From positions 10,612,234-10,676,233 of the forward strand of contig NC_049984.1 in assembly GCF_000003815.2 (NCBI RefSeq): DNA of 64,000 nt, written 5' to 3'. Positions within the stretch are counted from its first letter, which is position 1; each line of letters begins with the position of its first letter. The DNA is from Branchiostoma floridae (taxonomy: Eukaryota > Chordata > Leptocardii > Amphioxiformes > Branchiostomatidae). Both the position numbers and the translations under genes were made by a program. The notes below the pieces were generated by a model. It was not told where the DNA came from. It did not search any database and worked only from the letters and a program-made list of their open reading frames with translations. Shown here in pieces: positions 16,301 through 50,446 of the stretch.

Positions 16301-19300
16301 TGACTTGGAGCGAATCTGGAATTGGGTACAAACTAATCATCTTGTTCTCAATATTGGAAAAACTAAATCAATCATGATGGGTACGCAACAAAAACTAAAA
16401 CGTAATCCCAAATTAGAACTAAGAATAGATGGAACAGACATTACACATGTAGAACAGGCTGAACTGTTAGGTCTCACTATAGACCAACGTCTCACATGGG
16501 GATCGCATATTGACAAAACGAAGAATAAAATGGCAGGCATACTAGCCACAATAAGACGACACAGGAAGTACTTCACAAAAAGTATATTGAGATCTGTTAT
16601 TCAGGCTCTGGTTTTGTCACACATTGACTATGGCTCAGTGCTGCTATCCTCTGCACCACAGACACACATAGATGGTCTTCAGGTGGTCCAGAATCGCGCT
16701 GCTCGCCTGGCCACAAACAAGCCCTTTGACACCAACCTGGAAGACCTACACATGCAGTTAAAGTGGCAAACCGTTAAAGAAAGACTCTTCACAAATACTG
16801 TATGTACATTCCACAAAATTGTTAAGGAAAGGCAACCCCAATGCATCTTCAAGCAATTACAAACAATTCAATCCACACATGAGCATCACACGAGGCTGTC
16901 TACTAGAGGAGCATTCACTCAATCAAAACCCAAAACAAACGCCAAAACAAGGACATTTGGCTACAGATGCATCAAAACCTATAACACATTGCCAAACACA
17001 ACGACATCATACAACAACATTGAGTTCAAATCTAGGATAAAAGAGCTTGCGAAAACACGAGACAAAAGACAACCCCTGAGCACATGGTGGTAATGATTTT
17101 TATATTTCAGTATATCTAAGTTATATATTTATGTTGTGTTATTAGTACACTTTTGATTGGATTGTGTTTCCAATCAATTAAGTTAACTTCTTCTGCTATT
17201 CATTATTCGTTATGTATGATCACTTCTTTATTTTGACCTCTGACCTCTGCTTATTATTTTGCTTATTATTTTACGCTAATTATCCGCTTTTGATGTTAAG
17301 TTGTTTCTTTTTCATTTAATGTATTTCATTTATTATTATTATTATGACTCCAGGAAGAGTAGTGGCATGATTTTATGATGTACACTAATGGAGATCGCAA
17401 TTAAACAAACAAACAAACCAAATCTAATCTATCAAAAAGCAAGCTTAAAAACTAGTCAACTGACACATTACACATATGTGTATATATCGTTTATGTTTTA
17501 AGACTTAAATCGACACCAAAACATAAAGTGGAGGATAAATAAACCAAAAAGAGTTGGGGTTGATAGCAACTCGTATTTTCTTTCACACAGGCACAGACCC
17601 TACTGGTATTTTCTTGCCTTTTTCCCCCGGTAACTATCACAACGTACAATTTTCATTATCAACGACAACACCTTACTCGGGTCACCTTACCCGTCATCCG
17701 TGGGCGATCCCGAGAGAAGTAAATTTATACGCCGCCTCATGTTTTCTCGTCATAGATTACAGTACCCCCACTCGCAGCTTCCCGTGTTCGGCTAAGGTTT
17801 TCACACAAGTTTCCGGCGTGGAGGTTTCCTCTTAATTCACCGAACCGTGAATATCGAACGGGTTCTAGCGGCTGGAAGGAAGACTAGTGGGCGGTGGTGG
17901 TAAGGTATATAATAGCCCATCACGGTGATTATAATTGCACAGGCGGTAAGACGCTTCACCAGTCCTGTTCCCGGTCCGCGGTGCAGTCGGTACTGTTGCG
18001 TCACCGCGCAGAGCGTTCAGCTGCGGTCCCCACACGGTGATCTTACAAGGCTGCCGTCTTCGGAAGCTGTCAAATAGAATTAGACAGCAAGGACGGCGTG
18101 ACTGTCTCTCACAAAGATGGCCACAGCCAGCCCGCAGGACAAGCAGTGTGAAGACTGGGGATACACAGGAGCCAGTAAGTACGGCGGGCATGGGCAGGGG
18201 CGACAAGTCCAGTTGTGTATGTAGGGTTCATTGCACCTTAATATAGACAGATGTACAACATTACCACCCACTTGTTTTAAATTGTGTCCGCAGATATCAT
18301 TAGCTCATATCATGTCACCCTGGCTGGCTCTATCGTGAGCTTCGCTGCCGCGGCCTCTAGTCTAGGTTTAGAAACAGCTTTTTGAGTCACGACACGTTTT
18401 TTTAAGGCTGCTTGATTTGTTTACAGATTGAAAGCATTTTTATTTCAAGCATAGCTCTTAATTTACCACATGTACATTGATGTTTGCTTCTATAGCTCCA
18501 GGCTTGTTCATAAGGGTAATAAAGTAGTAAAATCCCGTGAGTGCTGACGTTCCAGCCAAAAAAATCTATAATTGTTGGGCCGATATTGAAATGAGGGTTG
18601 CCTCACATCTTCCCCCATATGCGCTGCATGGCCTAAGAGCTTTTTATACTGCATTTGCAATCAGGCAAAGGATAGGTTGTAGAGCCCACCCGCTGCCTCT
18701 GCCCTAATTAACACTCTACAGATGCTATCATCACGTCTCTTCTGAAGACATTACAGTCGACACAGCGCGCGGTCCCGCAGGATATTGTTCATTAATGTTC
18801 ATGTGTGCGTGCAATTTCTTTGATCAGGCACGGCTAATACAACATTGCCTCCCACCCTCCAAGATGTCTCGACCCTGACTCAAGGATAGTCACACAGATT
18901 AAGTCTCGACTAACGCACTTAAGACGGCTGCTTCTTGTCTGTACAAAGCTGTACACGTTCATCCTCTTTGTATAAACCATAAACCCCACAGATGGGCAGA
19001 GTTGGCTCGGTTCTTCACGCTTTGTCGCGTGCCACGCTTGGAGGCATTAGGGCTATGTTAGGGCCATTGAACTTGGCGTAAATAAACAGACATTACATAG
19101 AAGGCGTGTCTTGCTCGGGTTAACTCAGTATATCAAATCACTTCGATGATACAATTGTAGCAGGATCAAACGCAGCTGCATATGTTAAGATACCACCAAA
19201 GCGCATTAATCTTAATCCTTAGGCATAAGCCATCTTATTTCCTCAACGAAATTCTGAAGAACAGATATTCATAGGTCTATTGTACTAACCTTTTTATTCC

Positions 19301-22300
19301 TGTTCACAATATTGAAGCTACCGAAAGGTATAGGTTTAATGGATTGCTCTCAGTAACAAAGACAATATGAGTTAAGTCGGCAATATTCACTTTGCTGCAA
19401 CCTCAGCTTTGATACACGTCAAGTCTTTCATGCTAAGGCTGTGTTGACGTATAATATCCATCAAAAAGATGAAAAGGCTTCAGAATGTTTCATACAAACG
19501 CTTGCCTGACGGGAAGAGAAGTAACGAGCAGTCAGGAAGAATCATAATCTTCATTACGCACAGAGCGAGGAGGGGATAGAGTAGTATAAGCTTTCTACTA
19601 CTCCAATCTAGAGACCGTACCATCTTCAGATCAAATTCAAAGTGATACAAAAAACGTACTACGATACCATAAAATGTCGCCAGGGGACGTTTTGAGATCT
19701 TATATCCCACTCACATGCCTAACATCAAGAGTTCAAGACAAGTAATTTTTGCCATCTCCATGTATCATGTTGTTACAAAGAAAGACATAACTCTCTCCAC
19801 ACTAACTGTACCCAAAACATAACCTTCTGGCGAAGGTAACTGCGGATATCCCACACAGCATGGAAACCGTCGCAATATTCGTGAAGGATGAAAGGGACTT
19901 ACAACGGAAACCGGCATGACTGAATAACAACATTGCTGACGTCAATATGTGACCACGGTACACTCCAGTGTGAAACACCGTGAAATGAAGGTTCCTTACT
20001 TCCTAGCCACAATATGCATATGGCCCTGGGCATACTTTCCGCAGTTTACAGATGCATAATGCGCATATAAATGGAGTTGACCGCCGTTGGACAATCCAGT
20101 TTCTTTGTATCCGATGTGTCAGCGATTCCAGGTGAGATAGCTATAAGTTTCCACAATAATGCACGATGTGCGCCATAACAGCACGTCTGCTTGGAGATAA
20201 GAAAGAGCTGACGTTGTTGCGATTGGCAGAGTTCTCCCAGACATACTCTATCATTGTCGACACAGCTGTCTGAAGGACGGCCGACATTTTTCACTCAAAG
20301 TCAAAGAAACACTCAGCCATGACACAATTCGTGTGTACAAGAGTAAAACATGCTATAAAGTTGTCTTCGCCGTTAGCGTAAGAAATGATTAGCGTGAACC
20401 ATTTGCACACCCGACCAGTATCCATACATACTAATACGCTCGTACATGTAACCCCTCGTCGGCAGGAGTCCAGGTCACAATCACTACGTGGGGATTAGTG
20501 TAAAGGTCGAGCCATGAGAAAACTGCAGGTGTCCCAATATAGCGATTTCTGTAAAAGGGAAAATCTTCGCAGATATTACAAATGGAGTGGTCGCTTTTAT
20601 CTTCAAGTTGAGGTCGAAACAGTGGGTAGGCGAACAGAAGACGAAATAGAAATGTTCGCGGTGGTTTTGAGTCCGCGGTAAAGAGATGACCGCGAAAACT
20701 CCGAACATAAAACAACTACGACAATGTCCACTTTTACAGTACCAGCCAGCACCGTGACGGATCCAGTTTGTACACATCATTGACTGGTAATCATCTTGTG
20801 CAGGTGTTAAAGCTATACCCAGAGATACAATATTTGTCACATTATGAAAGGAATTCTGAATATATCATGTGTTTTTTAAATCTTACCTACTAGTATTTGA
20901 ATGTCATTTGGCATTTTTGATAAACGATACATGAAATGACAAGACACTTTCGTCGCGAGTATCACAAAGGGATCATTAGTATTCCACGCCGGTTTCCCGT
21001 AAGACGTTTTCTCTACAAGCAGGTCCTAGAGGACTTTTAAAACCTCTCCAGAGTCCTCATCTCAACCGTGTACGATGGATCTAATTAAAGTGCCGGCAGG
21101 AATATGTTTGAGTGCTTCTCGTACGAAAATGAAAATCAATTTTCATCCTCACAGCTTTTCGTGCTTGCATATGCACGTTTCTGCCCCAATTCATCGGACA
21201 TCAAAACTTGCGTAAGTGACCGAAGCATATATCGGATACCAGTTCTATAAATATTTTCAATATAATCTGCGTTTCTGACGTTGAAGCGTACAAATCCTCA
21301 CATGAAAGAACGGTATTCTCCATATACTGCTATCATGTTCAACTCATATATCCGCCTACGTAGATCAACTCATTTATACTTTATTCCAAATGCGACACCA
21401 GATCATTCATAATGACCGTGCTGTTATCGATAGTATTTTGTTGTTATGTATGTAGCCTTGTAGAACTATTGTCTATATTAGCTAGTAGTTGTTATTGGTT
21501 GCCATACATTGTACCTTGTGCAATTGTTGAGCAATAAAGTTCATTCTTTCATCATGCATTTCTTAACCTTTTATCACATCATTCTTCTTCACAATTTGCT
21601 ATATGGCAGACGGGTAATTTGCTGTCTTCATAGATTAATGACTTTCAGAAGCAGATCAGTCTGACGGGACGCAATTTTCGGATGCTGAATTCTTTTGTTG
21701 TAGTTGTTGATTAGCATATTCTATTATCAACAGATTCTAGCATTTCTAATATTAGATATAAGGGGTATTAACTGTCAAATTACGATGTAATTTTAAGGGA
21801 ATAGTCCTGTACGAGGAATGCTGTTGATATAAGAAAAGACTCGGCGCCACATGCAGATTGAACCTATCTTAAGATGTGACAGCTTTCACAGATGCAATGC
21901 AACAATAGGTTAATACACGAACATGTTGCTGCTATTAGGAAAGATGCTGAAACCCATGGCCACGATTAGCCTCGCCTGATTGTAGCATGTTAGATGTTAT
22001 GTCAGCCTTTATTGCTTAGTAAGCTTAATTGTAAGCTGTCTTGATATTTCTATCTTGTATTTTGTAGATGACCGTTAGAAAGTTGCGTTGCTGTGTGCTG
22101 CGAGAATAAAACTTCTTGATCTTGTAATGAAGCATTTTATACAAATGGGACAAGACGAAATTTCTGAAAGTCTCTCTACTCATCAATGGCTCATCATAGT
22201 GGAGAGAAGCATTTTTTGTGTACAATTACTGTCCCTGATAAAGGAGACATGTGTCGACTTGGCCTTCCTCTTGGATTTGAATCAAGGAGTCACTTAATTC

Positions 22301-25017
22301 AAGTTTGTAACAATGTATTCACAGGTCTATCCGAATGGGGACTCAACTGGCCATATGCGAACGGCGACCAACAATCTCCGGTCAACATCAATTCCCGGAC
22401 GGCAACCTTTGACGAGACGCTTGCGGAGCGCCCCCTGCTGATTAGCTACTGCCTCTGCAGGGAATGGGAACTAAGCAACGATGGGCACGCCGTCCAAGTG
22501 GTACCCAAACCAAAGACCGGTATCAAAACAATTACACATACTACTACACAGAGAAGACTGGTATGCATCCTATTTTGCAGAGGTGTGATTGTTGGAGGGC
22601 TTCTTTTGTATGCAGTCTTATACTGATAGTCCAGGATACCAGACTAACACAAAGCTGTTATACTAATCCATTCTAGAAACAGGAGAAACACTAATGATTG
22701 TAGACGATACATTTGTTGTCAATGAAATTCTGTAGGTACAGCGTTAAACTGTCCAGTTCGTCTTTTTCAGCGACATTTGAAAGCAGCGCCGCCTTCCGAG
22801 ACAGTAGATCGGAGCAGGTCCTTAAGTTAGGTACGTTCGGTGCTGACTGCTAGCATGATGATGATGCTAATGCATAAGTGTTTTTGACAGTCTGCGTACA
22901 TCAGTTTTAATAACGTGTTTTTTATCAGACACTTACATTCTAACATTTCTTCCGTATCAGTCACCTCAGGCGGACCACTTCCGGAAGGGCATGAGTTCGA
23001 GCTTTGTCACCTTCGGTTTCACTGGGGACGAGAGGACGACCGTGGGTCTGAGCATACCGTAAACTTTAAGGCATTTCCGATGGAGGTAATTTGTGAAAGC
23101 ATCAACGTGCTACCGGCTTAAAATATGTTTTGATGGAGTTTTTGTGCGCTTTTTATGACATTGTAGAGCGACCGGTTATCTTACTGGACTGTGCACCGGA
23201 TTGGACCCCAGTCCTGTGAGATGCTTCAGCCACCAATTCGCCGTGACACATACCTGTTTTTTTCCCTTTCCAGCTTCACCTTTTACACTGGAACACGAGT
23301 TTATATTCCAACTTGGCAGACGCGATGGGCAAACGCGATGGGATAGTTATCATGTCCGTCATTGTTCAGGTAACTCTGGCTTCTATTCATTTTTTAAATT
23401 TATCTGCCAATAACACGACCCACGTTGTCGCCTATACTCTAGATAATACGTAAACTCTAAGTCTCAGTGATACATAAATTGGATCGTGTATTGTAATAAT
23501 GGGGCTCATTTATGTAGTGGCTACTCAAGTATTACTTTAAAAAACTATATATCATCAACGAATGCGCAAACGCTCGACATACATTCATGTCATTATCATC
23601 ATATATGCATGATCCTTGTTTTGCTCTGTACTTCACATACAGATTGGCAGAGAAAACGCGGGAGTTAAGAATTTTACGGATCATTTAGAAGACATTCAAT
23701 ACAAGGTAACGTTTCTCCACCAGTGTCACGCTGTATGTTGAATACACCAAAGGCTATATACTTTGTCTGACCCTTGCCTCTTCCCTCATGACCTCAATGA
23801 CAAAGCGGCCTAGCGCCTGGAGGCCGATTTGAGCTTTCATGAATAAATAAAGGTTCAAACAAACAAATAAAACAAAGGATTGGTACAATACAACGGGATG
23901 CATTGTCTTGTAAACTTTAAGATGGTTTTTACAGCATTTGACAGAGATGGCTAGATTAATCTGCAAGTCAGAACCATTTCCGGACATTCGTTTGTAGGCA
24001 CTGCCTCGATGGTGATAAGTACCACAGTCAACAACGGCCATAGTTGGAGACTGACTGCTTCAAACCGATCGCGACATTCATTGAGATTAGTAGCACTGTG
24101 CGGTTGGAGTTTCCATCCTATATTTGTATATCAAACTTACAGTATTGCACGATTTTGTATTTACAGGGGAAGTCCAAAACTATTACCACAGCCTTTAATC
24201 CTGCCGCCTTTCTACCCGGTAAGACCCTGGTATCAATGTTAAAGATGCACTTATATCAATCTAGGTTTGGAAGTTTGCAGATAGTCGCAGAAAAAGCTGT
24301 CGTTTCTCAGTATGATTTCATTATTTCATGCACTGGTTTTTACTATATTGTTTTCAGATCCTGCGCTGAGGGAATACTGGACCTACGAAGGGTCTCTGAC
24401 GTCACCGCCATGCTACGAAAATGTTCAGTGGATCATATTTCGTTACCCGCTCACAATTTCTCACGTACAGGTGAACTATCGTGTCTTTAAATTTATGAGA
24501 TTTTTTGACCGAAACCTTACGATTACGGGGTAATATCATAACAATAAACCCACCACCAGTAAAGATCTCAAAGGTATGTTTCACTGTAAATTTCTCGGTG
24601 GCAGCACTACGTATACATGCACATATGTCGACAACGTTATCTGTCTAGTTACATGCATTGTAAGCTTCGTACGATGCTCTACTAGAAATCAATCATAGGG
24701 GAATACAACGACTGGGACAAAGAAATTCAAAGCGCATTCTGAAAATAAAGAAGTACTTACCCTTAAAGCGAAGTGCTTTTCTTAGAACTGGCTTGCAATT
24801 ACTATCGTTCCTACTATTACTTGCACCGTAACTTTACACGTGATGGTCACTTGGTGAATACATACGTTTTCCACACGTTCAGATGGAGGAGTTCCGCCGG
24901 CTACGGTGCCACGCCAAGGGCCAGCCCCCGCCTCCGGGAGAAGAAGGTATGCTGTGTGACAACTTCAGACCGACGCAGCCGATCAAGAGCAGGGTCATCC
25001 GAGCGTCCTTCCAGTGA
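10248..25017 (+). CDS. Ca8: Carbonic anhydrase-related protein VIII ortholog (acatalytic)
   Basis: The main coding sequence is join(10248..10311 or 18117..18174, 22325..22519, 22961..23085, 23274..23369, 23643..23705, 24167..24218, 24358..24470, 24883..25017). It gives 280 aa (isoform A) or 278 aa (isoform B), close to the ~290 aa of vertebrate Ca8. Every intron is GT-AG and all phases match. Diagnostic stretches are [77 protein letters not shown] and DNFRPTQP. In isoform A, Arg105 replaces the first zinc ligand (His94 in CA2), while His107 and His130 remain. This Arg substitution is the hallmark of CARP VIII and predicts no CO2 hydration. Vertebrate Ca8 is cytosolic and binds the type 1 IP3 receptor; that role here is inferred from homology. 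The vertebrate-type long Glu-rich N-terminus is mostly absent. Intron 1 (up to 12 kb) contains a LINE and a MITE. Confidence 0.95.
10312..10774. other. Start of Ca8 intron 1A
   Basis: Intronic sequence directly after exon 1A. No gene or repeat was recognised. Confidence 0.5.
10775..10858 (-). repeat. Dispersed hairpin repeat, copy 1
   Basis: Read on the minus strand, this begins CTCGCACACAATACTATAGG and continues to ACAAAAGGCTAC. It aligns at roughly 75% identity with 50844-50930 read on the plus strand. The consensus contains a stem of CACACAATACTA with TAGTATTGTGTG, so it is a foldback element. It lies in Ca8 intron 1. Confidence 0.6.
10859..13934. other. Ca8 intron 1A, unannotated
   Basis: About 3 kb of intron between exon 1A and the MITE. 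No protein-coding exon, RNA gene or clear repeat was recognised, although regulatory elements could be present. Confidence 0.4.
13938..14306. mobile_element. PIF/Harbinger-like MITE, 369 bp
   Basis: Terminal inverted repeats of ~34 bp begin GGCACGATCTACACACAG on the left and, reverse-complemented, GGCCCAATCTATACACAG on the right. Both run into a GATATCGG palindrome, with about 29 of 34 matches. The element is flanked by a 3-bp TTA duplication (13935-13937 and 14307-14309), the signature of PIF/Harbinger insertions. An internal ~21-bp direct repeat (AGCTTAGCAGGGGTCCCCGA) lies near 14087-14130. The 122-codon open frame across it is not a gene. Inserted in Ca8 intron 1. Confidence 0.8.
15670..17420 (+). 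mobile_element. 5'-truncated CR1/Jockey-like LINE with reverse transcriptase
   Basis: An open frame (to TAA at 17091-17093) encodes a non-LTR reverse transcriptase. Visible motifs are [18 protein letters not shown], motif [15 protein letters not shown], motif [21 protein letters not shown], catalytic motif C VMYADDST, the GKTK block, and the [12 protein letters not shown] thumb segment. Similarity starts near 15670 ([12 protein letters not shown]), so ORF1, the endonuclease and the beginning of RT are missing. Such 5' truncation is typical of target-primed reverse transcription. The copy keeps its ~300-nt 3' tail and ends in AAACAAACAAACAAAC near 17400-17420. The remaining RT frame has no stop or shift, so the copy is fairly young. 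It sits in sense orientation in the Ca8 intron, between alternative first exons 1A and 1B. Confidence 0.9.
17906..17913 (+). promoter_or_regulatory. TATA-like box upstream of Ca8 exon 1B
   Basis: TATATAAT lies ~205 bp upstream of the exon 1B ATG in a locally GC-rich stretch. It could set a start site near 17935-17945. This supports a separate promoter for isoform B but was recognised only by motif. Confidence 0.45.
18117..18174 (+). CDS. Ca8: Ca8 alternative first coding exon 1B
   Basis: This exon encodes [19 protein letters not shown] plus one base, with donor A|GTAAGT. It has the same phase (1) as exon 1A, and joining to exon 2 gives [15 protein letters not shown]. The ATG context is strong (A at -3, G at +4). 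The shared EDWGY core with exon 1A is what supports both being real first exons of one gene. Confidence 0.8.
18175..22324. other. Ca8 intron 1B, with a probable LINE 3' tail near 21.4-21.55 kb
   Basis: No exon was recognised in this 4.1-kb intron. Around 21430-21550 the sequence ends GTGCAATTGTTGAGCAATAAAG followed by a TTCATTCTTTC-like tail. This resembles the 3' ends of CR1/L2-type retrotransposons, so a remnant is likely. The rest shows nothing definite. Confidence 0.4.
22771..22830 (+). CDS. Ca8: Candidate Ca8 cassette exon (60 nt, in frame)
   Basis: A pyrimidine-rich acceptor (tctttttcag) precedes exactly 60 nt that end in TTAG|GTACGT, a good donor. In the required phase 1 the segment is open and would insert about 20 residues ([20 protein letters not shown]) between PKPKT and TSGGPLP. 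It is symmetric (phase 1-1), so inclusion or skipping keeps the frame. Vertebrate Ca8 has no insertion at this point, so this is either a lineage-specific alternative exon or a chance match. Confidence 0.4.
   Translation, partial: RHLKAAPPSETVDRSRSLS
23755..23885 (+). repeat. Retrotransposon 3'-tail remnant in a Ca8 intron
   Basis: A stretch with GCCTGGAGGCCGATTTGAGC ends in TGAATAAATAAAGG and an AACAAACAAATAAAA tail. The form matches the 3' end of a LINE or SINE insertion. No coding part remains. Confidence 0.4.
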
Positions 25018-25868
25018 CAGGTGTCAGACCTGGTCTTCGTAGGGACTTCGCTAGATGGCGCTTTCGTACCACCGTCATCATTACACATTACTCAGCTGGA
25101 AAATGGTTCAAACTTCAAACGGAATCCATATCGCTACATAATATATATTTACCCCCCCCCCCCCCCAACACTGCAGGTGCAAAATAAAATGAGAGCATTG
25201 TATGTGCTATTTGTGGTGTATACTAGTATTGGTGAATGCATGGGTCAGTTAATCACTAGTACTCAAGAACAAACAATACAATCTATGTTTGAACAATGAG
25301 ACTCAATCGCTACGTGAAATATTCTATTATATAGTGTTGAAGTAATTCCATTTGTATATGTACATTTTCTCTGACACAACAATTGTGCAATGTTGACCAT
25401 GCTGATACTTGTACGTTTATGCTTATGATGTGGTATTGACCAAGTCAGTTGGAGTGGCTACTGCGTCTCTGTCAGACTTTAAAAAACATTAAACAAATAC
25501 GCTTGGAGATAGTTGGCAACAATTAACAAGCTGTCTGATTAACAAATGTATATATTGAGAAGGTAAGCTATACGGAAAACAAAATGCTGCTCTTCAACCG
25601 AGCTTGCAGGTGCAGTACGAACAGGAACCACAAGATGTCTCCCCATATCCATCTCCAGCCTTTCTCCGACCACTTAAACTATATACATTTGTAGTATAAG
25701 ATTTGCAATTTATACCGTCTGTGTTGCATTCAATTGCTCCAAGAGGTTGATTTGAATTTGGAACAGGACATAAAATGAACTAACCTGCCGTAAACAATGA
25801 ACTGCTTGTCTGTGAATGATATAAGATAGTTGCTGTATTGTTTTAGACAGAACTGTCATGTCAAGTGC

Positions 25869-25874
25869 AATAAA
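25869..25874 (+). terminator. Possible Ca8 poly(A) signal
   Basis: AATAAA in the context gtgcAATAAAgatgtttt lies 0.85 kb after the Ca8 stop codon. An earlier AATAAA near 25184 is an alternative. Confidence 0.4.
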
Positions 25875-26002
25875 GATGTTTTATCAGAGAAGGATACAAG
25901 GCCACTTGTAAGTAGGTTAGGGTGAACCCAAATGAATCAAGTCACACTTTTCATCATGGTGTAACAAGCTTTAGTGGGGAAATTGGAGACAGAGATGCTC
26001 TA

Positions 26003-26390
26003 GAAATGACATGTTGCTATCTCAAAACCAAGTTAGCCTCTGACATTCTCACACTTTCATTATGTGAAAAGTCAGAGGGTCCTTAAACAGATTACATCAG
26101 CGAGCTCATCTTCTAAAGAGCAGCCTATCCAATACTAATCATGTCAGCTACTGCTGAGATAAATAATGGCCCAAGATATGGCACGACTGCTTTCACCATG
26201 TAATTCAATCTAGTCCTCATCACAACCAACCAGCAACATTTCCATATCTTGAATTATTCAGACATGTACATTCATTTTCTGGTTGTAACGACAAGAAAAA
26301 CAAGCATCTTCACAGACTGACAGCCCGCTGATAATGGTTGAGACAGCAGCGCCATTTTGATACCATCTGATTTGATTAGAGCGGGAAGAG
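26003..26390. promoter_or_regulatory. Duplicated conserved noncoding block A, copy 1
   Basis: This ~390-bp block aligns co-linearly with 50044-50446. Shared words include TTCATTATGTGA (26057 / 50098), CTAATCATGTCA followed by AGATAAATAATGG/AGC (about 26136 / 50186), and CTTGAATTATTCAG (about 26247 / 50299). GCTGATAAT..TGAGAC is shared near 26330 / 50389. No open frame is conserved, and the alignment has indels that are not multiples of three. The AT-rich homeodomain-like cores suggest an enhancer; function is inferred. Confidence 0.65.
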
Positions 26391-27216
26391 AAATCCTAAT
26401 ACTATCTTGGATCAGGGATAATGGCTTTCCAGGCTCCTAAGTGCCATTCCCCGCTGTCTGTTAAAGACATCCTCTCAGGTATCATACGGTCATTCCACTT
26501 CAAACTTTCAAGTGTGTAAAAACATTGACATGCTTACCTTTGGTTAGGACAGGTGTTTTCCATTTCAGCCTACAAGAGGATTCAACACAAAGTATCCCCA
26601 ATTCTTTATTTTCCTATTCCCTTTACATGTATGTCACTTGATGATATCTTCACGTACTTCAGCAAAGCCAGTCACATTGTATCTCTCCTTGGTGCTGAAA
26701 AATTGGTTATCATCAGTTAGAAGGTGATATGAAAAATAATGAGTTTGGCAATAATGTGATGTATTTTACGTTTAACAAGCAAGACTCTTTATTTATCAAG
26801 TACTACTGTTCCTGGACACTGCATTGATTGTGAGATAAAGTCAAGAAACAATTTATCAAATGATTCTATGCATTTTTTTGTTTTGATATTTGAAAAACAA
26901 ACGAACTTGGAGTCTGTGGTGTTGGCATGTTTGAAAGACAATTCAATCATGAGGAAGTTTGCTGCTGTCAACATAGGATCGATGTGCCTATCAGTTAGGT
27001 TCAACTATGGGGGCAAAACTGAACACTGGGGTCATCCTAGGTACTGCAGTATAAAGCCTAGCTGGGGGGGGGGAAGGAGATAAAGCTCACAGAGGGATTG
27101 TGCAGGTCAGCAGGAGGAAGCAACAGGCTGGACCCTGAGGAGGAAGGGTGGAGGTGAGAGAGATCCACTCACAGGTTAGGAGAAGGTGCAGCACTCCATC
27201 AATGTCAGGGGGTGAT

Positions 27217-27464
27217 CACCTGAACCACAGGTGGACAGATCACCTGAACCACAGGTGGACAGATCACCTGAACCACAGGTGGACAGATCACCTGAACCAC
27301 AGGTGGACAGATCACCTGAACCACAGGTGGACAAATCTCCTGAACCACAGGTGGACAGATCACCTGAACCACAGGTGGACAGATCACCTGAACCACAGGT
27401 GGACAGATCACATGAACCACAGGTGGACAGATCACCTGAACTACAGGTGGACGGATCACCTGAC
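27217..27464. repeat. Minisatellite, 24-bp unit, ~10.3 copies, E-box palindrome
   Basis: Ten nearly identical 24-bp units start every 24 bp from 27217, plus a partial eleventh at 27457. Each unit contains CACCTGAACCACAGGTG, an inverted pair of CACCTG E-boxes around a 5-nt loop. The period is a multiple of three, so frames on both strands stay open; these are not genes. Confidence 0.95.
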
Positions 27465-28371
27465 CTGATTTAGAAAGGTGGGACACCATGTTGGACAGAT
27501 TTGTCTTGTCCATGTTGGGTATCACACACCTACCCTGTAGTGTCAGGTAAAACACTGTTTCACAAGGCCCCACATGTCCCAATTCTAGCACAGTAAGAGG
27601 AAACAACATGCCTACACAAGGCCCCACAGGTAAAGATAAGGCAGCCTGCTCCATCACTGTCACAGGTCTGACAGGGTGATGACCAGCCTGCCCTGGGCCC
27701 AACATACACACACATATTAGCTCTTACATGGACTGGAACGCTTTATTGCAGCCACAACTAATAACAGCGATGGGCTGAGGTGTTTCAGTAGTGATAGGGA
27801 GGTGGGCACACACATTAAGAGACACACCCATGGGGTCATACAGGTGACAACAGACAATCCCTGGGATCTCACAGGGTCAGAAAGATATAGACATCTTTTC
27901 AAAATACGCCTCTAACAAGCTCAATGATGTACCTATCTCCAGTAACAGACTGTAAAACTGCTGCTGCATTTCCTACATAATGTTGTACACCCTGCAGCAC
28001 AACTTTAACTTAACAAAACGTAACATTTCATGTAGGAAACAGTCATCATGCACAGAAAAGTTTTCTTTGAAAAGAACATTAGGTTAAAGCTCTGAACCAT
28101 TTCTTGGCAGTTGACACATAAATCCTCCCTCTTCACAGAGAGCAGTTACCACTCTCGGAAGTTGTAATGTTGGACATTTGTGCAGCAACAGTATTCTGCT
28201 GTTCCAGGCAGTTAGCAACATGATTTTACATGTACATTTTAAGCTGATGACATATGCTCCGTCTCCTGCCATTTCCTCTGTAGATCCCGGTACCCAGTAA
28301 TGACCAGCCATTACGCTTATCTCTCCAGCCCATGTCCCCAGCTTCCCCTGATCGGAGGAGCCCACATCAAT

Positions 28372-28905
28372 TTTTTGTCCAACATGTGAAAGGTTAATAA
28401 TCTCCCGTTGTCCAGCCATGTCCGTATGACCACGGCTGCATGTAGATATCACCCGGCCTTTGTAATCAGCAACTATCTAGACTCGCAGTCCCTGTGTAAT
28501 TTTCACCAATCAATTTCCTCCCTGGCTCAAGCCAAGAGGCGGCCAAAGTTCTGCCATCAGCAGGTGTTCAGGCATGCGGCGGCCGGAGACTTTCTCATTT
28601 CCAGTAACGGCACATTCCGTTTGGCATTAGTCTGAAATCTAAAGACCATCAGTGCCGGGGGTGAGCGGTGTGATTGTAACACTACTGATAAGTTATCGCA
28701 GCCATTTCTCACTGTCAGGACAGGACATCAACATTATCTGCCCACCAACACCTTTGGTCAGAGAGCACATCATCACCAGGATCGATAGTGAGGCACGCCG
28801 AACCCACACCTCTCCCGCCAACTTATGAACCGCCGGCTGCTTTATGAAGACGTATCCCCCCGGCACAAACTTGATGGAAAATTAGCTCAGTTTGTCTAAA
28901 TCGTT
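28372..28905. promoter_or_regulatory. Duplicated conserved noncoding block B, copy 1 (101-bp identical core)
   Basis: Positions 28372-28472 are identical, base for base, to 52662-52762. Similarity then continues with gaps to ~28905, for example AATCAATTTCC, GATTGTAACA, GATAAGTTATC, CACCTTTGGT and GGAAAATTAGCTCA. The core holds ACATGTGA (an Iroquois-type ACATGT site), TTAATAATCTCC and CTTTGTAATCA. A short open frame (HVRMTTAACRYHPAFVIS) crosses the core but has no ATG at its start, and downstream the two copies diverge with frame-breaking gaps. A cis-regulatory element is more likely. Confidence 0.75.
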
Positions 28906-30949
28906 GCTGATTTTGCAGGAAGCCAAGCATTGATTTCCTGACCAGACCGTCCATCCTCCTCATACATTTTCATTACTTCACTTCTACAGACCAAGAATGA
29001 TTGAAGTTGTGAAAACAGTTTTCCTTCTAATTGTTTCTTGATTCTCCCCCAGCAGCCCTTATCTCCCAGCAGAAAGGCCCAAACAGATGTAATCACAGTT
29101 CTGTAGAAACATGCTTATCTGTGTAATAATGTGGAGGGGCTTTATCCTGTTACAGCCTCCAAGGCTACAGCTAAACAACATTAATCTTCACCTCTACAGA
29201 CCACATACTTACACCTTGGGGCAACATGAAGGGTTCCCAAGTCAACTGGCATGATCATTATCTACTTCTCCCTCTAGGAATTTTTTAGTAATTGAAATAG
29301 TTATAGTAATATCCATGAAAAGTCAAAGCACAAAAAAACAATACACAAAGACTTTGACTTTATTCAGATCCACCTTTAGCCTAATATACAAGTATATTGT
29401 AGCTATTCTTCCTGTAGTCTTTTTAACAATCTAAGAGGACAACACGACAAACAGGTACAAACCATACAATGTGCATAAGATTCACACATAATAAAAATTA
29501 AGGTTACTTGAGGTTGTAAGAGAATATTGGGTCCAGTTTTGGGTTCAATAACCTTGTCGCATCAAAGTTGGAGTTAATTGTAGACAAAATTTCTGTCAAG
29601 AAAACAAATAATGAAGACAATGCTGTACAGCATTTGAATCAATAGACCAGTCTATTACATTTGTTGGCTGTGTTCCCTAGATTCTGTATTGTTGCTATAA
29701 CACACTATATAACATGCATCTCACTTGTAGCAATAAACCATTTATGAAGACCTTCACAAGAGAGTGGCTTTGTATTGGTGATTATTCGCCATCAAATACC
29801 TATCGGGACCGCAATCAAAGGGCAACTAAACGATCTGATTATGGTTTTATATTACAGTACTGTTAGGAACCAAATTGGTTTTATAGTTCAGCTGACATTA
29901 CAATTAGACACAATGAATGGCTCAAAATCATGTTATATGCCAAAGGAACCTAAAAAAAAAGTACATTAAGCGCTGAAGAGGTTAGGGCACATGTAAGAGG
30001 TTTGTGTTAATCTGCTTTTTCCTGGCATTTATTCTAGTCAAAAAGATTTGAATACTGATCATTTTGAAGATAACATTTAGCCTTTAAAGTATGGTGGACG
30101 ATAGAGGCATTTTCACATTAGTATGTCCATGTTATCTAGATCTAGACGAATAGAAAGAATTTTTATAGCCATGGCAGAGATAATTGTTTTACAGTCAAAG
30201 TAAGCTGCAAGGAACATTGTATACATCAATCCATGTAGTCATAAGAATGATTGTTTCATGACAAAACATATATTTTCCTTTCGCAATGGTGACCCATGAA
30301 CAGTACCTCTCCCTCCAGCAGTTATATAAAAATCAATTACTCCGTCCTGTAATGCCTGCTTGACCCCCCTGACCAAATGTCAGCCACACCAAGTGGTGCA
30401 GCAGCCTGGGACCAGGGAGCGCCAGTGATGACTGCTTGACTTCTGACCCAGAAAGTGCAGGTTTTGTGGGCTGCACAAGCATAATTATCTTATGATTTAT
30501 CAGGTTCTAAACTCTGGGGGTGGGTCAATCACTGCGCCTGGGGTGGGGTAAAACTGTTTGTCCTATAGATAAATTCAGATCCAGCAGAAAGTGTCACAAA
30601 TGTATTTAGATATCATTGGGAAAGTATAAACAAGTAGATTGGAATCTGTGCTACATGTAGGTTTGTTTCATAAGTTAGCACACAATGGATATAGGCCTCG
30701 GTACTCAACAGTTATTTGTGTAGAATTTAACGTTATGATCTCCAGTATTTTATTGGGCAGATCAGTATACCTAGCTACTGTCCTTGGCACTGAATGTGTT
30801 ATCATATCTAGCTCCTGTCCTTGGTGCTGATAAGATCTCAATGCCTAGTTCCTGCCTGTGACAATGAATGGATTGTAATACTTTGGTGTTGAACAGGTCC
30901 CCATACCAAGCTTCTGTCCCGGGTGCCAATCAGATCGCCACACATAGAC

Positions 30950-31575
30950 CTGTCCTTGGTTCTGAACAGATCCCCATACCAAGCTCCTGTCCATGGTGCT
31001 GAAAACATCACCATACCTAAACCTATCATTGGTGCTGAAAACACCACCATACCTAGACCTGTCCTTGGTGCTGAAAACACCACCATACCTAGACCTGTCC
31101 TTGGTGCTGAACACACCACCATACCTAGACCTGTCCTTGGTGGTGAACACACCACCATACCTAGACCTATCATTGGTGCTGAACACACCACCATACCTAG
31201 ACCTGTCCTTGGTGGTGAACACACCACCATACCTAGACCTATTATTGGTGCTGAACACACCACCATACCTAGACCTGTCCTTGGTGGTGAACACACCACC
31301 ATACCTAGACCTATTATTGGTGCTGAACACACCACCATACCTAGACCTGTCCTTGGTGCTGAACACACCACCATACCTAGACCTATCATTGGTGCTGAAC
31401 ACACCACCATACCTAGACCTGTCCTTGGTGGTGAACACACCACCATACCTAGACCTATTATTGGTGCTGAACACACCACCATACCTAGACCTGTCCTTGG
31501 TGCTGAACATACCACCATACCTAGACCTGTCCTTGGTGCTGAACAGATCACTATGCCAAACCCCTGTCCTTAGTA
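30950..31575. repeat. Minisatellite, 36-bp unit with 72-bp higher order
   Basis: A 36-bp unit containing CCTTGGTGCTGAACAC and ACCACCATACCTAGACC repeats ~16 times. Two variants (CCTGTCCTT and CCTATTATT/CCTATCATT) partly alternate, giving a 72-bp super-period. Degenerate copies extend outward to about 30780 and 31690, so the centre is homogenised and the edges decayed. Long open frames on both strands arise because 36 is a multiple of three. Confidence 0.95.
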
Positions 31576-31990
31576 CTGAATAAATCCCCATACCTAGTCC
31601 CTGATGCTAAACAAAGCTTTATTCTAGGGAATAGCCATGGGACTGAATAGATCACCATAACTAGGTACTGTCCATGGTGCTGAATGGATCTCAATTACAA
31701 AGATCCAACTGATAGATTACAGTTACAGATCTTAAGTTTTAAGATTTAGATAAAAGTTAGGACCCTATCACCATTATCAGCATCAACTTCTGCTTCAGAT
31801 GGTTAGAAGTATGCAGACCTTTCCTTAACCACTGGGAGGTCAATGACCTGGGACCTCATGTGATTCTAGTAAGCCTGGGCAGGCAAATGAACTAAATTGT
31901 AATTACAATATCCAAGAAGGAAACTGAATTATCACAAATATTTGGACCATTGAATATACATCAATTCATCTCTTGGCTATTGATGTAACA

Positions 31991-32139
31991 CCAGTTCCCC
32001 TTTATTTGCGGGGTAACCTATATCCATTGTACCTAAAACAGGATATTTAGGGATATCACGTTGATGGACTTGATATCCCAAAATACCCTAGTGTTAAATA
32101 CGACGGATAAAGGTTACCCCGCGAATAAAGGTGAACTAG
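31991..32139. mobile_element. Foldback MITE, ~149 bp
   Basis: Inverted arms begin AGTTCCCCTTTATTTGCGGG on the left and, reverse-complemented, AGTTCACCTTTATTCGCGGG on the right. Pairing continues through GTAACC to TATCC, ~36 bp in all. The middle also has a GATATC/TATCCC palindromic part. No clear target duplication and no coding capacity. Confidence 0.65.
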
Positions 32140-35100
32140 CATTACACAGTATTAGAATCTGTGCACCTTTTCAGAAGCCAACAATAGCATGCACTTCACT
32201 TAACTTCACTTAGTTCAGTAGTATAGTATTCTTGCTTTACTGAACCGGAAAAGGGTTAAGACTAGGTACAAGCCTCTCAAGATCCCCTCAGGACTACTGT
32301 AAATAACAACCAGCCTGCAGGATTTCAACACTAGCTTAACTGCAGACAGCCTGGCATTCCAAGCATTCCTTCAGCACAGTAGTTATGCCTGTCAGATGCT
32401 GGGTCCCTGAGATTCCTGTGAGTGAGGCATTTCTCGGTGACAGGAGGGACCCCATTATTACCACCTTCCTGCTATCCCACATCAGTTTTGATGGAGTTTT
32501 GATACGTATCAGTGCCAAATATTTGGCCTTGCAGTGGGGCTGTGACATGGGCCGGCCTAATGGCGTATTACGAGATAGGGGTCGACGTGAATGATGTCAG
32601 CGGGGTCAACATGGCGGAATCCTAATCTTGTACTAACATTGACTTCCAATACACCCCAAAATGGCGCCGTTTCTCCGGCCGACCAGTTTCTGTGTTAGTA
32701 TTCCGTGTCTACACGCTCCGCCTTGTCTCATCTCCCACCCGTGGCGCGGCAGGCCTCCGGATAGTCGCTAAATCCACAGAGTACGACATGCCGGCCCCTG
32801 TAGAGACCCGCAGAAATAATTCATAATTCCTCCCAGCCAAGACCAACATCTACCGGCCTAATGGCAACTATGCAAATAATTCCTCTAATTTGCCAAAAGC
32901 TGGGAGGCATGTTTATATGGAGTGTAGGGGGTTAAGGGTTTATCCTGACCCTCTTGTGGAGTCATTAAGGCCGTTCCGAGCTCCCTAGAAACTACACAAC
33001 CCTTAATGGTGAATTCCAATTCATTAGGAAGACTGCCGACTTGAGACCAATCTCAGACTGGACCAAGTCAAATGCTTTTGAGATCCCTCGGACCAGAGGA
33101 CCGTCTAAAGCTCCTTTTAGTTTTAGCTTTCAATATTCTTTCGCTCAGGCAATTTGTGTAAAACAGCTTTCCTGGTCATCTTCTAAATCATATAAAATGT
33201 ACCTCTGCTGGACATGGTCATTCTAGCAATGAAAGAAATACTTTATAATAACTCATATTGCCCACTACTGGCCACAAGGGACATCTGGACTTGCTCACGT
33301 CTCTGTAAAATCTACTTTAACATCAGTTTCCAATAACCTTCTTGCCAGCTTACATCAGCCACTCTGTAATGCCCACATTTCCTCAGGGTCTCTGTCCAAC
33401 CAATGAAATATTCATAATGGTCAAGCTGCACTGATCTGATTTGTGATCAATTTTTAACAGAACCTGTGTTAACAGTGCAACATTATTGCAAGGGAGCCAA
33501 TCCTGACAAGGTGCAACATCAATAACTCTACAGACAAACAGGACAACTTCTCTTGGGCTAAAACTTTGTACAACTGAATGCAATGTCATACCTGTACTTT
33601 TTTTACAGGTAAAACACACTATTGTCCTCAATCACATAAAATCTGTCCCCTCTGGCCCTCTGACTGGACCAAAAGGGAACATGACTATTTTTCAAGAACT
33701 GAGGAGAAGGACAGGTCCTGTAAATAAGGAGTTAGGTCCACTGATATCCGCCCCTCCACACCACAGGTAGATTAGAACACAATCTTGGCACAAAGATGGA
33801 AGCCAACATCCGATGCCTCCTGCATCAAGAGCAGCGTAATGAGAGTCAGCCCTTGAAATGCCAGCATTGCACGACCACTCCTGCATTTTATTATCCAGGA
33901 GACTTACATGATGTCAGCAGTGGTCAGACCAAAGAAGTACAAAGTGGAACAGGCATCAATTTGCTGCTGCCCTTTGGTCTTTTGGCCTGAGTGCTTCAGC
34001 AGATTTCTTCGTTAATGCTGCAGCCACTGAGGAAATCTTCAAAAGCTGGTCCACAAATGCAATAATCCATAACTGATGCAAGCAATAACATTGTGGGCAA
34101 GTGTATTAGTGAGGTGCTTTCTGGTTGGGGGAACTGTGTGTAATCCTTCATGAAAGATTCACCTCGTGGTGAGGACGGTCAGGCAGAGGGAGCGGAGGCT
34201 GAAGTACAGAAGTGCTGGCTGACCTCAAGGTCAAGGGGCAGGCAGACAGTGGGCGCTGGAAGGCTGACCAGTCAGAAATATTTACCACTGAGATGTCCAG
34301 AGGTGTTTTGACAATGTAATATCAAACCTTAAGCTTGATGCAAATGTGTTTTTCTGCTGACTTTAAGCTTTGGTCATTGTTGGAATAGATTTTCTAAGAG
34401 GAAAGGTTATGTAGTGCTTAGATTGAATCCTCAAGTTTATCATACAGTCACTACAACTCAACTCAAGCCCATCAATTCCTTGGACAATCATTCCAGTATA
34501 TCACTATGTACAATAAGGTGGTGCTAATGTGCAAACTGCAGTTTTCAACATTACTGATAGATGGTGTAGTGTGACTATTGGTATATGTTTACAAAAAATG
34601 TAGGCAGGATGAGAAAAACATTTTGATTGAGAATCAGCAGATAGACTGATTTCCCCCTGAAAATTCACCCGCATTAATTTGACTAACTTTGTTATTTGTG
34701 GTATTGGTTTTATTGACATTATGAGACAGAGGTAAGAGTTATATGCTCCATTGAGTTGTTGGTTGATTAATATTTTGTCTTTGTAAAGCAGATACCTGGT
34801 AACAGAAATAACAATATAAATAGTAAATTCTACATTTTAATGTACCAAACTACCTGCAATGTATAATGCAAGTTGAAAAATATGTGCATGTAAAAGCTTG
34901 GCTATTGGTCATTTTAAGTTAACAGATGCATAGTAAAATATAAAAAGAGCATCTGAAAGCCTGTTGTTGCTGTTGGCCACTTTGATGTCTGAGCTGCTAA
35001 GCAAAGACAACTTTAGCATGATAATGTCAACCCTGTAGGCCACCCTGACCACACAACCAATTGTCCCTGAGAAAACGGCATCTTTGTCCACCAGTGTGTG

Positions 35101-37548
35101 CGGACATGTATGCGATATGAGCCGCTTTGATCCCCCCAACAAAGCCCTGCAAAATATGCAGCTGCAGAAGAAGGGAAGAATCAGCCCCACACAGCACATC
35201 ATTACACAGGGGTCAGGAAACCCTCTTATCCAATCAATTACACGCCATTTGTCCTGAATCCCAGAAACATATCTGCCCACCTCCAACCTGGGGGACTGTA
35301 CAAGCACACAACAATCATGTCCAGCCACATCTGGACCACATTGTCACTTCACATTGCTGTGCCTTACCAACAAATTACAAGGCAGCAAGGTGAACCTCAC
35401 ACTTCAGCACAGGTTGGACCAGTCAAACTTCACCCAAAGCCAACAACTCTAACACTGAGACTCAACAATGACATCAAAACCAACTACTCCTGACAGTTAG
35501 ACTGTACAATATAAACTTCTAATGTTAACTACCACAGAGTAGGCAATCTGAAACAATTTCCAACCCTTAAATGACTTCAACTGTTATTGCTGCCAAATCA
35601 ATTTCAATCTTAAGATTTTTTATCACTTATCAGAGTATAGGCGGTAGACCAAAGAATTGTTGTCAGGTTGCCTGTGCTGAAATGCCTGGATGGATGTTCC
35701 GTGTGTAAAAGTACATATTGTTGGCATCACAACCAGCACAAAAAGGAATAAAGTCAACAATTCGCCTATGATCAGAGTGACCCTGTCCACCGATCATGTG
35801 TGTCACAAAGACGTTCCATCCAGTTGTCCAGTGGAGCAGGAGTGGCGAGGAGAAGGGAAGACAAAAGAAAACAGTTAGGTTTGATCATAGGAAACACGGC
35901 TATTGTTCCAGCTTGAGATGGTGACTGAAATCTCACAGAGATTTGTTCACTGGAGACTTGTTCTCTTTGTTTGCCAGGAATGTATTTGTCCCAACATTGA
36001 TTAGTAGACATAGGAACTACACACCAATGATTGCACTGCTTCTGCGCAGCCTCTACAAAATAACTGCAACATCTTATAAAACAAAAGGTTTTCGTTCAAA
36101 TTTGAGTATTGAGTGTGATTTTCATAGCTTATATTGTACTTACTCACTTACTTTTCATAGCATGTCACTAAAATATCTTTGTTATCATCATCACATTTTG
36201 TCATGTTGTTTAACTTGTTATAAGTTGTGCATAAAAAAAGTGTACAATTATGTTTTTGCAGGTCAAGGGTGATGATAAGTGACCCACCCACATGTATATC
36301 ACATTAAGAAATATCCCATTCTTTCAATAACTCTTTACCTTCTAGAGTTTCAACTTTCAAGTTAAATTCAGTCTTTAATCCATAGGAGCCTGAGAGATCA
36401 TATCATACCAGATGTTATCCTGTACATATCCAACTCTGAATGGAAGATAATCCCACCCTGACTTTTGTTCTACACTGAAGGGGATTAAGGGTGATTGGGA
36501 CTAATCCCCCATGTAATCCCTTTCTTTCACTTGATCTGACATCAAAGTCTGCCAGAAGCCATCATCCTTATTAAACATGATCCACAGGTGTCATCTAGTT
36601 AACTGGAAAATCAGATTAAGACAAGACACTGTTCCAGATTCTTTAAGGATGACATAGGGGTCATCAGATAGAATGGTCTGAATAGCTTGGGGACAGGATA
36701 TACATGTTGTAGAAACAACTGTAATTGCACAAGCTACATAATGAGATTTAGGGTTTTGAGATAAGTTGTGGCGGCCGTTCTCTAGGCTCAGGTACGGACT
36801 CACCATGAATGTTTCAGATTGATAGTATTTTGTTTGAAAGTTTCTACCAATGAAGGCACTTGCCAGGACACATCTTTGGTATGTCTTTTGACATACAAAG
36901 TCTTCTGTATAAATCTTACATTAACGTAGATGAGCTATAAAAGAAATTAAGGTTATGCATCTCAGAAATGGGCTAAATTAGTCTAACAAACCTATGAATA
37001 CCACAGTTCATTTGATAGCTAAAACTGGAAAACTATTGCGATATATATGCGATTAAGTGATATTATAATTGATGTTTTATGACAAGTTTCTTCACAAGTG
37101 TCTGTCCATAGGGCCACTCAAAAAGCCATCTGTCATGTCAGCAGGTTATAAATCAGGCCATAGAGCCTGTCACAAAACCTCCCCTGCCTCCCCTCTCCTC
37201 TCAGGACTGGGACACATGTTTGGACCTTCTGTGTGGTTACCATGGTAACAGGCCTGTGTAGGGTGTGACACCACATTTCTGTATCCTGGTAACCAAGACC
37301 TTATCTCCATCCCTCTATGTAAACACCACAGAGCCTGGGGAGACCATAAAGATGTAGGACTTCATGTCTCATTGACTTCACACTGGGAACAAAGCTGGCT
37401 CATCATCACTCACAATTCTCACCTATTTGTCAATCCAAAATTCTCTTACTTCAATGCTAATTACCTCCATTACCCATAAAAAGGGAAATCTATAGGATGG
37501 AGGAGTAAAAATCTTTGATAAGAAAAAATTTCAAAGTGAGGACACAAC
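32140..37548. other. Gene desert segment with a possible regulatory patch
   Basis: No gene was recognised. The stretch 32700-33100 is more complex and locally GC-richer than its surroundings. It holds an octamer ATGCAAAT (32870-32877) and several TAATT cores, so it may be an enhancer. The remainder is AT-rich without clear repeats. Confidence 0.3.
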
Positions 37549-37628
37549 CTGGGTACCATCCTCCATAGTAATTGCTGACTCAATCTTGAGCCAGCAGTGG
37601 TTAGTTACTACTGAGGATGGTGCCCAGG
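37549..37628. repeat. 80-bp near-perfect hairpin (short MITE)
   Basis: The arms CCTGGGTACCATCCTC...AGTAATT and (reverse-complemented) CCTGGGCACCATCCTC...AGTAACT pair almost to the centre, which carries GCTGACTC / GAGCCAGC. No target duplication is clear. The element has no coding potential. Confidence 0.65.
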
Positions 37629-40172
37629 CTTAGAGGACAGATGGTTTTCATCAAGTACAGAACACAGTGTGGTGTTTATACACATTATCATCAGTTACAA
37701 TAACACAATGTGTATCTGTTGAAAGATACCAGATAAGAAGAGATTTGTTTGGACAGTATCAACTTAATGATTATCTTTTCTGTTACATTGTAGTTAGAAA
37801 GTGATAGAGCTCGAGGGTTTTCAGTTACTGTAATGGAAAGAGAAATACAGAAATAGAAAATGGAAGAGATCATGGGCTACACAGCATAACAATGTTGTTA
37901 TTTCTACAATTCAAATCATTGTTTGCACATGGTTGTAGATCGAATATGGTCCATCACACAGCTGAGGAGGATATCTGAGATATCTGTCTAAATCTTATTA
38001 AAGGCTGAAAGCTGCAGATTCCCTCTGGGTTCAGACTTAACTGATAATGATGAGGATCTCCCCACTCCAACATTGTGCTGGTCCAACACCCTGGATAAGT
38101 AACAGATGGCACCACAGGCAAAGTTAAAAGGATTACAACAGTCAGACTGACATTTTCTCATCTGTGCAAATTGATTACAAACTTATCACAAGTATGGATG
38201 GTTGGGACTCAGCAAAGCTCATGCTGGGACTTCGGACAAAGGAAAGTCACAACAACAACAATAAAGAACACAATGAAAAGCCCCTTTACTGCACATACTC
38301 AGCTTTATATCAAAAGCCTTACATAAACATTCATGGCCCCTGACCTGCACTTTTCTGATATTGACCTTTAAAAGACCACACAAAATTGGACCTGCATGTG
38401 TACAACACAATGACACATAATCATGGCATGACCTATACATAGATTAATGGAAATTATAACATCCCAGGCTACATTGTGCAGCAAATGTACCGTGACTGGA
38501 GGTTACACAGGCACAACCACAGGATCATCAGAATGGGCAGATTTGTCAGGACCTGGGCAGGGAAACGATTCACACTCCACAAACTTCTACCATTATTCAA
38601 CCTTCTAAAGACACTTTCTCCAGTGCTGTGGTATGAAACTGTGTGATGATAAAGTTGCAGATATTGTGGGTTCCCTGATCCTCTGACCTTACAAATGTTT
38701 CCATCAGGAGCCTGACCACTCCAAGTTAGGGCTGGGCACAACGTTGTTATTGGAAAGTGTCACACTCAATTCATAACAAACACAGCTGCAATAAGTAAGA
38801 TGTAACAGTAGATGTGATACTAATATAGCTCATAAAGTGGTCATCATGAGGGACATAAGACACATTAGATCCACCTTAACACAGGCACTTTTACACACTT
38901 AACACAAAGGGCTTTTCACTTAATGTGAGGAACAACATGCCATAAATCTGTGGGCTGTGTGCAGGGATTGCTGCAGGCAAGGTTTTAGTGTGGAGATGAT
39001 GAATACATGTCTGACAACTCAAGCCTTTTTATGTTCCATAGTAATTATGAAGCACACCTGCAACCCCAGACACCTTTTCACACCACAAAATTAGAGACTG
39101 AAGTAATTATCAGACAAATGGGACCATCAATATCTATTGTTGTCACCAATGATTTCTGCTTGCACTGTCCCTTAATTTCCAAAGGTAATAATTAAGGATG
39201 ATTAAGAGAGAGAGAGATACATACTATAATCTCAAGATTGGATTAAGACTTTTTGCACACACCTGTTTTCATTTTCATTGTAAGATATTAAACAAAAGAC
39301 CATTGGCAAGCTGGTTCAAATGTTAGTTTAAGACAATTAAGCAGTGGGTAAAAATCTTCCCCAAAAATGATCTACCATTTCTCTAAAAGTCTCAACTTTA
39401 TTCTACCTAGATTTCTACAGACATGGAGATAACTGTTACATCTATTATGATACGGTCATATACAGTAACAACCGTGACATGGATGGCAGACATTTAAAAA
39501 AAGGTAAATCGACACAAGCAATGGTAGCGATTTTCCCTATGCTAATACACAGGAGACCGTTGAGGGAAAAGGTCCTGTTCATACTGTAATTAAAGGCCAA
39601 ACACTGTGCAGATCAACCATAACCTCCAACATTATAATTAACATCCAAGGTTTTGACCTATTTTGATAACACATTGTACTTTGTGGATTTTCAAAAGTGG
39701 GGCAAACAGGAACGCCACAGGGGAGCAGACACAGTACATGCATGAGTGCTGATATGTCCTGACAGTTAGCATGGGTTCAATGACTCCACTGTTACAATAT
39801 AATTACCAATATGAGAGAGCACCTGTGTAAATTATGTTCACTTCTTGACACCTCAATATGTTATAACAAACAAAGCAGTCTGTATGCTGTGCCTAAAACT
39901 GGGACAGGTTTTCTTGCCAATGGGTACATAAAGATAATGTTTGCAATTGTGGCCACCTTGGCTATCAATAACTAGAAAAAATGAGTTCGGGCACCTCATA
40001 TCTCTATGAAATATATAAATCTATGCTTGGTTATGTACACCTCTAACCAACTTACACAGGTCACAATGTTCACAATCCAATATTGTACTATTATGACACT
40101 TTCACATTAATCATGCAAATTAGGGACATATTGGTATATTTGTATCTTGACACACTGTATTTATAGATTAAC

Positions 40173-50043: not shown

Positions 50044-50446
50044 AAATGACACCATTGCCATGAGAAAATCAACTTAGCTGCTGATATGCTTACAAGTTCA
50101 TTATGTGAGGAGACAGGAGCCCCGTAAAAAGATTAAAGCCTCCCATCCATCTCCTGATAAATGGAAAGAGCAAACCTGTTCAATGCTAATCATGTCAAGT
50201 ATTGGGAAGATAAATAATAGCAGAACATATAGAATGTCTGATATGGGCATGTAATGAAATTTGCTGGTAATCATACACAGCTTGGAACATATCCACAGCT
50301 TGAATTATTCAGCGTTCATCAATGTCTACAATGTAAGAACAATAGAACAAATGTCGGGATGTCGCCGAGATGACATCAAGCTGATAATACGTGAGACGGG
50401 ACCACAGTTCCAATGTCACATCATTAGATTACAGGGAGGGAAGTGA
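50044..50446. promoter_or_regulatory. Duplicated conserved noncoding block A, copy 2
   Basis: Second copy of the block at 26003-26390, in the same orientation, ~24.0 kb away. Conserved cores are separated by diverged, gapped sequence, as expected for an old duplication with islands under constraint. Confidence 0.65.

Follow-up and report, generated by a model that had tools for sequence, protein, structure and literature searches.

The window, that is, the whole 64-kb stretch of Branchiostoma floridae DNA analyzed here, contains a gene of the Irx (TALE homeobox) family on the forward strand at positions 57996 to 60072, comprising three segments with approximate exon ends: 57996 to 58193, 58882 to 59235, which carries the homeodomain, and 59473 to 60072. 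The middle segment matched the Pfam families Homeobox_KN (E = 5.9e-18) and Homeodomain (E = 6.4e-8). The open reading frames (ORFs) holding the first and third segments had no Pfam match, and both segments are provisionally assigned to Irx by their position, strand, and content. A tblastn search with the three segments, at E values up to 1, detected no second homeodomain in the window. Branchiostoma is reported to have three Irx genes, which arose by lineage-specific duplications (PMC2674049), and in the neural plate of amphioxus, expression of IrxA, IrxB, and IrxC is described as lying caudal to the Fezf/Irx limit (PMC5396861).

Other coding features were found among the ORFs scanned. Two frames between 22168 and 24533 (22.2 to 24.5 kb) matched Carb_anhydrase and represent carbonic anhydrase exons, a 505-amino-acid (aa) frame at 15576 to 17093 with a reverse transcriptase domain (RVT_1, E = 1.9e-28) is probably retroelement derived, and a 655-aa frame at 5466 to 7433 contains C2H2 zinc fingers. 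Ten ORFs chosen as a sample of those listed between 28 and 55 kb had no Pfam match, and, as regards linkage of Irx to Sowah, no match to an ankyrin family was found among the 20 ORFs scanned.

Upstream of the Irx gene, which is the presumed target of the elements described below, lie two forward-strand copies of a 101-bp sequence, hereafter called the core, at 28372 to 28472 and 52662 to 52762. The two copies agree at 101 of 101 bases, with 0 bases of further exact match to the left or right. The core is the longest direct exact repeat with copies more than 5 kb apart in the 64-kb window; the only other direct exact repeat that reached 18 bp at a distance of at least 5 kb was itself 18 bp long. 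When a 22-mer from the core was searched on both strands with up to three mismatches, only two sites were found in the window, both of them in the cores, against 0.00 expected by chance from 100 shuffles. Together with the 18-bp length of the next direct exact repeat, this result rules out a chance repeat. Exact matches to a 40-mer from the core numbered 0 in viral contigs and microbial genome contigs, and the core had no match in plasmids, findings that argue only against vector or microbial contamination.

The surroundings of the core differed between its two sides. The left edge is abrupt, with identity stopping at a run of T, and the 1-kb left flanks did not align (local score of 13, equaled by 17 of 40 shuffles). 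Rightward, identity decayed gradually, at 1.0, 1.0, 0.8, and 0.56 in successive intervals of 50 columns. The near-identical stretch shared by the copies amounts to 148 bp at 94.6%. The right flanks aligned over ~430 bp, with 68% identity in ungapped columns (131 mismatches in 412) and 18 gaps. A preliminary description of this DNA had reported a perfect 101-bp identity between two copies, left flanks that cannot be aligned, and right flanks that align only with many changes and gaps, and all of these observations were reproduced.

The homology to the right extends the core to a full paralogous, noncoding element of ~540 bp, element R, of which the core forms the left end. R copy 1 (28372 to 28908) and R copy 2 (52662 to 53191), both on the forward strand, showed 69% BLAST identity over 549 columns (E = 1e-68). 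A second forward-strand pair, element L, at 25978 to 26391 (copy 1) and 50018 to 50446 (copy 2), matched at 65% over 434 columns (E = 5e-39) and is collinear with R: the L pair sits 2.4 to 2.6 kb to the left of the R pair, with order and orientation unchanged between the two places. The preliminary description mentioned neither the full element R nor the L pair. The starts of L and R are 2.39 kb apart in copy 1, compared with 2.64 kb in copy 2, and the offset between copies is 24.04 kb for L and 24.29 kb for R. The nearest gene to the left of L copy 1 among the ORFs scanned is the carbonic anhydrase gene, and R copy 2 ends ~4.8 kb and R copy 1 ~29 kb upstream of the first Irx coding segment; the proximity to an Irx gene mentioned in the preliminary description is thus supported by the homeodomain at 58882 to 59235.

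The L and R pairs were two of the five hits obtained at E ≤ 1e-3 when positions 4001 to 45000 were compared with positions 45001 to 64000 by sensitive BLAST. The other three hits were noncollinear: one was a match of 127 columns, and the remaining two were overlapping parts of an inverted repeat. The inverted repeat, at 10782 to 10976 and 50626 to 50917, is dispersed, with a best part of 79% over 89 columns, and the 18-bp exact direct match mentioned above falls inside it. The 127-column match, between 21962 to 22086 and 53638 to 53760 (65%, E = 6e-6), has an offset different from those of L and R; its second member lies ~450 bp to the right of R copy 2, and the match is possibly a dispersed repeat or a moved element.

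Homology along the offset was also examined across positions 18001 to 38000, which were divided into 40 tiles of 500 bp; one tile was fully masked. Five tiles were flagged. Three of them, all in L and R, scored 104, 117, and 62, against a maximum of 15 when these tiles were placed at control offsets, and the two outside L and R were flagged by margins of 1 to 2 points only. Given the 10 to 15 controls per tile, these two marginal tiles are no more than expected by chance; control scores in other tiles reached 29. In tests that compared alignments with dinucleotide shuffles, R and L served as positive controls, and their scores of 177 and 108 were reached by 0 of 20 shuffles each. The ~2 kb to the right of R were at the shuffle level (33 of 40 shuffles reached the observed score), and the DNA between L and R gave a borderline score of 17, which was reached by 3 of 40 shuffles. 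To the left of L, the score was 18 and the shuffle maximum was 17 (0 of 40), reflecting a match of 46 columns, offset by 25.8 kb, that is unexplained.

These comparisons place the core in a larger setting. Since the flanks on the left and right are at the shuffle level, a recent duplication and an unmerged haplotype are ruled out, as the preliminary description had argued for the former. The same description had singled out the core as a stand-alone candidate for an undescribed system, a view that finds no support here, because the core belongs to R, one of two collinear duplicated elements, and forms its best-preserved end. The DNA beside and between the pairs is essentially saturated with change while L and R persist, which suggests that both copies of both elements are constrained. 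Outside the core, the remainder of R retained 68% identity in ungapped columns and L retained 70% (122 mismatches in 407), which points to constraint on both copies beyond the core alone. The best reading is an old duplication, in direct orientation, of a regulatory block located upstream of Irx, both copies of which would still be under constraint, as judged from the sequence of a single genome.

Within R, the core stands far apart from the remainder. Differences at 0 of 101 sites give a 95% upper bound of 2.9% (Jukes-Cantor distance of 0.030), compared with 31.8% differing sites in the remainder (Jukes-Cantor distance of 0.414), so the core is estimated to have changed at least ~14 times more slowly than adjacent sequence that itself appears to be constrained. 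In 20,000 permutations of the columns of aligned element R, the longest identical run was 39, compared with the 101 observed. The earlier argument that a core of this kind requires either strong constraint or gene conversion is upheld by this difference.

Several findings bear on whether the elements act as DNA. Of the 18 gaps in R and the 13 in L, 14 and 11, respectively, have lengths that are not multiples of three, which indicates that the elements as a whole are not coding. The possibility that the core is a mobile element, a functional RNA, or a coding exon draws some support from the repeats and the reverse transcriptase ORF elsewhere in the window, from forward-strand frames of 80 to 81 aa that are open across most of both cores, and from a reverse-strand frame of 130 aa that is open across core copy 1. 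However, no Pfam match was found in the two frames tested on core copy 1, one per strand, and the gaps that follow the core break the frame; a coding exon is accordingly ruled out for the elements as a whole. There was no Rfam match in the window at the gathering score, and a permissive Rfam search of 28300 to 29000, covering copy 1 only, returned a single chance-level hit, far below the gathering score and outside the core. The folding of the core was unremarkable on the two strands (z = 1.58 and −1.36), and a known structured RNA is ruled out on these grounds; a tRNA reading of the element was also rejected. As for mobility, the window contains just two copies of the core, which lie within a collinear block of two pairs. 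We therefore regard a mobile element, functional RNA, or exon as highly improbable, the core looks noncoding, as claimed at the outset, and the function of the core is best taken to be exerted at the level of DNA.

Taken together, the features of the two pairs make it probable that R and L are duplicated Irx enhancers and that the core of R is ultraconserved, with near-absolute purifying selection in both copies. According to this proposal, a regulatory block upstream of Irx was duplicated long ago in direct orientation, and enough time has passed since then to make unconstrained DNA unalignable, while L and R would still be recognizable in both places because both copies have remained cis-regulatory. 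As enhancers active in development, L and R would most likely serve this Irx gene, and perhaps also neighboring Irx genes of a cluster that extends outside the window. In R, the first 101 bp would constitute a dense platform for the binding of transcription factors on which nearly every base matters in both copies, and near-absolute purifying selection would act on the core in each of them. The role of L and R as enhancers, the gene they target, the factors that bind them, and selection as the sole cause of the perfect identity are inferred from this pattern.

Even next to the remainder of R, a perfect run of 101 bp is exceptional (at most 2.9% versus 31.8%), and an additional process, possibly gene conversion, may have contributed. 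One alternative is that L and R are duplicated regulatory elements in which the core has been maintained at, or restored to, identity by ectopic gene conversion between its two directly oriented copies, which lie 24 kb apart. Such concerted evolution would fit a core that is identical while the remainder of R differs at 31.8% of aligned sites, and it would fit the abrupt left edge, but it would have to skip the remainder of R. At 148 bp (94.6% identity), the near-identical stretch is also shorter than efficient conversion usually requires. The decay on the right is, moreover, gradual, and the GC content is not raised: the core, at 0.455, falls between the two R remainders, at 0.502 and 0.436, and thus shows no sign of GC-biased conversion. 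Selection is favored over conversion because the flanking element is constrained, the right edge is gradual, the GC content of the core is intermediate, and the near-identical stretch is short, and we consider conversion of the core rather unlikely.

Errors of assembly must be weighed as well. A length of 101 bp is a common short-read length, and the coincidence with the length of the core raises the possibility that assembly or polishing duplicated one core or replaced its sequence with that of reads from the other. Manual curation might be thought to favor such an error, in that the Irx cluster was manually curated and placed by hand in a published amphioxus assembly (PMC9673378), which may or may not be the one that contains this window. 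The core lies, however, within 540 bp of diverged homology and next to a second diverged pair, which speaks for two real copies of the block, and the gradual decay of identity on the right also runs counter to an artifact. The window contains no N, so that no scaffold gap of Ns separates the copies, and the flanks appear to be too diverged for unmerged haplotypes. An assembly artifact is unlikely, and we give the overwriting of one core by reads of the other very little chance of being correct.

The preliminary description had also raised the possibility of Irx feedback through both copies by way of an Iroquois-type site. The spaced Iroquois motif is ACANNTGT, and it occurred 0 times in either copy of R, compared with 55 occurrences in the window. 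Each core contains a single ACATGTGA, and two additional occurrences were found on the opposite strand of the window, but ACATGT is common, with 46 occurrences in the 64-kb window. Irx autoregulation through both copies is thus possible but finds no support in these counts. The motif counts also covered Meis, Otx, Sox/Tcf, GATA, and Runx sites, from which no conclusion was drawn.

A duplication of the gene together with its enhancers would be expected to have left a second Irx copy near 33 to 36 kb. No relic was found there by tblastn; the sole hit outside the Irx gene comprised 24 residues at 33768 to 33697 (E = 0.10). Only one Irx gene was found in the window. Either the enhancers alone were duplicated, or a gene copy was lost, or the geometry changed later.

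Paralogous noncoding elements of which two copies are kept near a developmental transcription factor gene have precedents in the duplicated conserved noncoding elements (dCNEs) of vertebrates (McEwen et al. 2006, as described in PMC2781166). The present pairs likewise consist of related noncoding copies whose surroundings can no longer be aligned, with a developmental transcription factor gene nearby (the Irx segment 4.8 kb downstream of R copy 2). Vertebrate dCNEs lie near paralogous genes and mostly date to early vertebrates, before a genome duplication (PMC2781166), whereas here a tandem arrangement places both copies upstream of a single gene, the only Irx gene found in the window. For the region of IRX5, which includes SALL1, 20 dCNEs are tabulated (PMC2781166). 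Ultraconserved elements are defined as sequences of at least 200 bp with 100% identity in human, mouse, and rat (PMC2781166), and the core resembles them in being a perfectly identical, long noncoding stretch near a developmental gene but differs in its length of 101 bp and in that the identity is between paralogs in one genome rather than between orthologs. Clustered noncoding elements likewise lie beside Irx in the genomic regulatory blocks and shared enhancers described for Irx genes (PMC5585340), a parallel drawn here from sequence alone.

The literature also bears on how far the elements might be conserved. Irx is among the genes with regulatory elements conserved between a sea star and other deuterostome phyla, hemichordates and amphioxus not being separated for Irx in that report (PMC13317027). 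The study that covered the IRX5 region placed its five proposed amphioxus conserved noncoding elements (CNEs) near BARHL2, BCL11A, and ZNF503 (PMC2781166), and Irx is not mentioned in the main texts of two papers on deep conservation (PMC10735318 and PMC3410860). The location of the amphioxus CNEs near other genes and the lack of mention of Irx in those texts count against deep conservation with vertebrates. No published report of this duplicated element was found in the literature searched, although one may be in print.

Duplicated CNEs are a known kind of sequence, and it is the perfection of the core that is unusual. It has yet to be explained why certain noncoding sequences can change so little, and two copies in one genome, each with a frozen core and a drifting remainder, provide an internally controlled case. 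Constructs could pair either core with either remainder, and comparison with orthologs from related species would distinguish selection from gene conversion directly. It is conceivable, if improbable, that the two enhancer cores evolve as one, through ectopic gene conversion or selection for matching copies, while the remainder drifts; if so, the matched cores would represent concerted evolution of a developmental regulatory element. The case would also bear on the clustering and enhancer sharing of Irx genes. Genomic regulatory blocks and shared enhancers of Irx were reportedly described by Tena et al. in 2011 and by Maeso et al. in 2012.

Several further repeats were noted in the window. A 24-bp minisatellite at 27214 to 27463 (10.4 copies at 96%), in which several frames are open, lies ~0.9 kb to the left of core copy 1, and a 36-bp minisatellite with 18.3 copies occupies 30938 to 31597 and has frames of more than 200 aa open on both strands. 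It is followed at 31984 to 32146 by a palindrome-like sequence of 163 bp that matches its own reverse complement at 79%. At 2313 to 3799, imperfect repeats, including 31-bp units, are clustered and match one another in both orientations.
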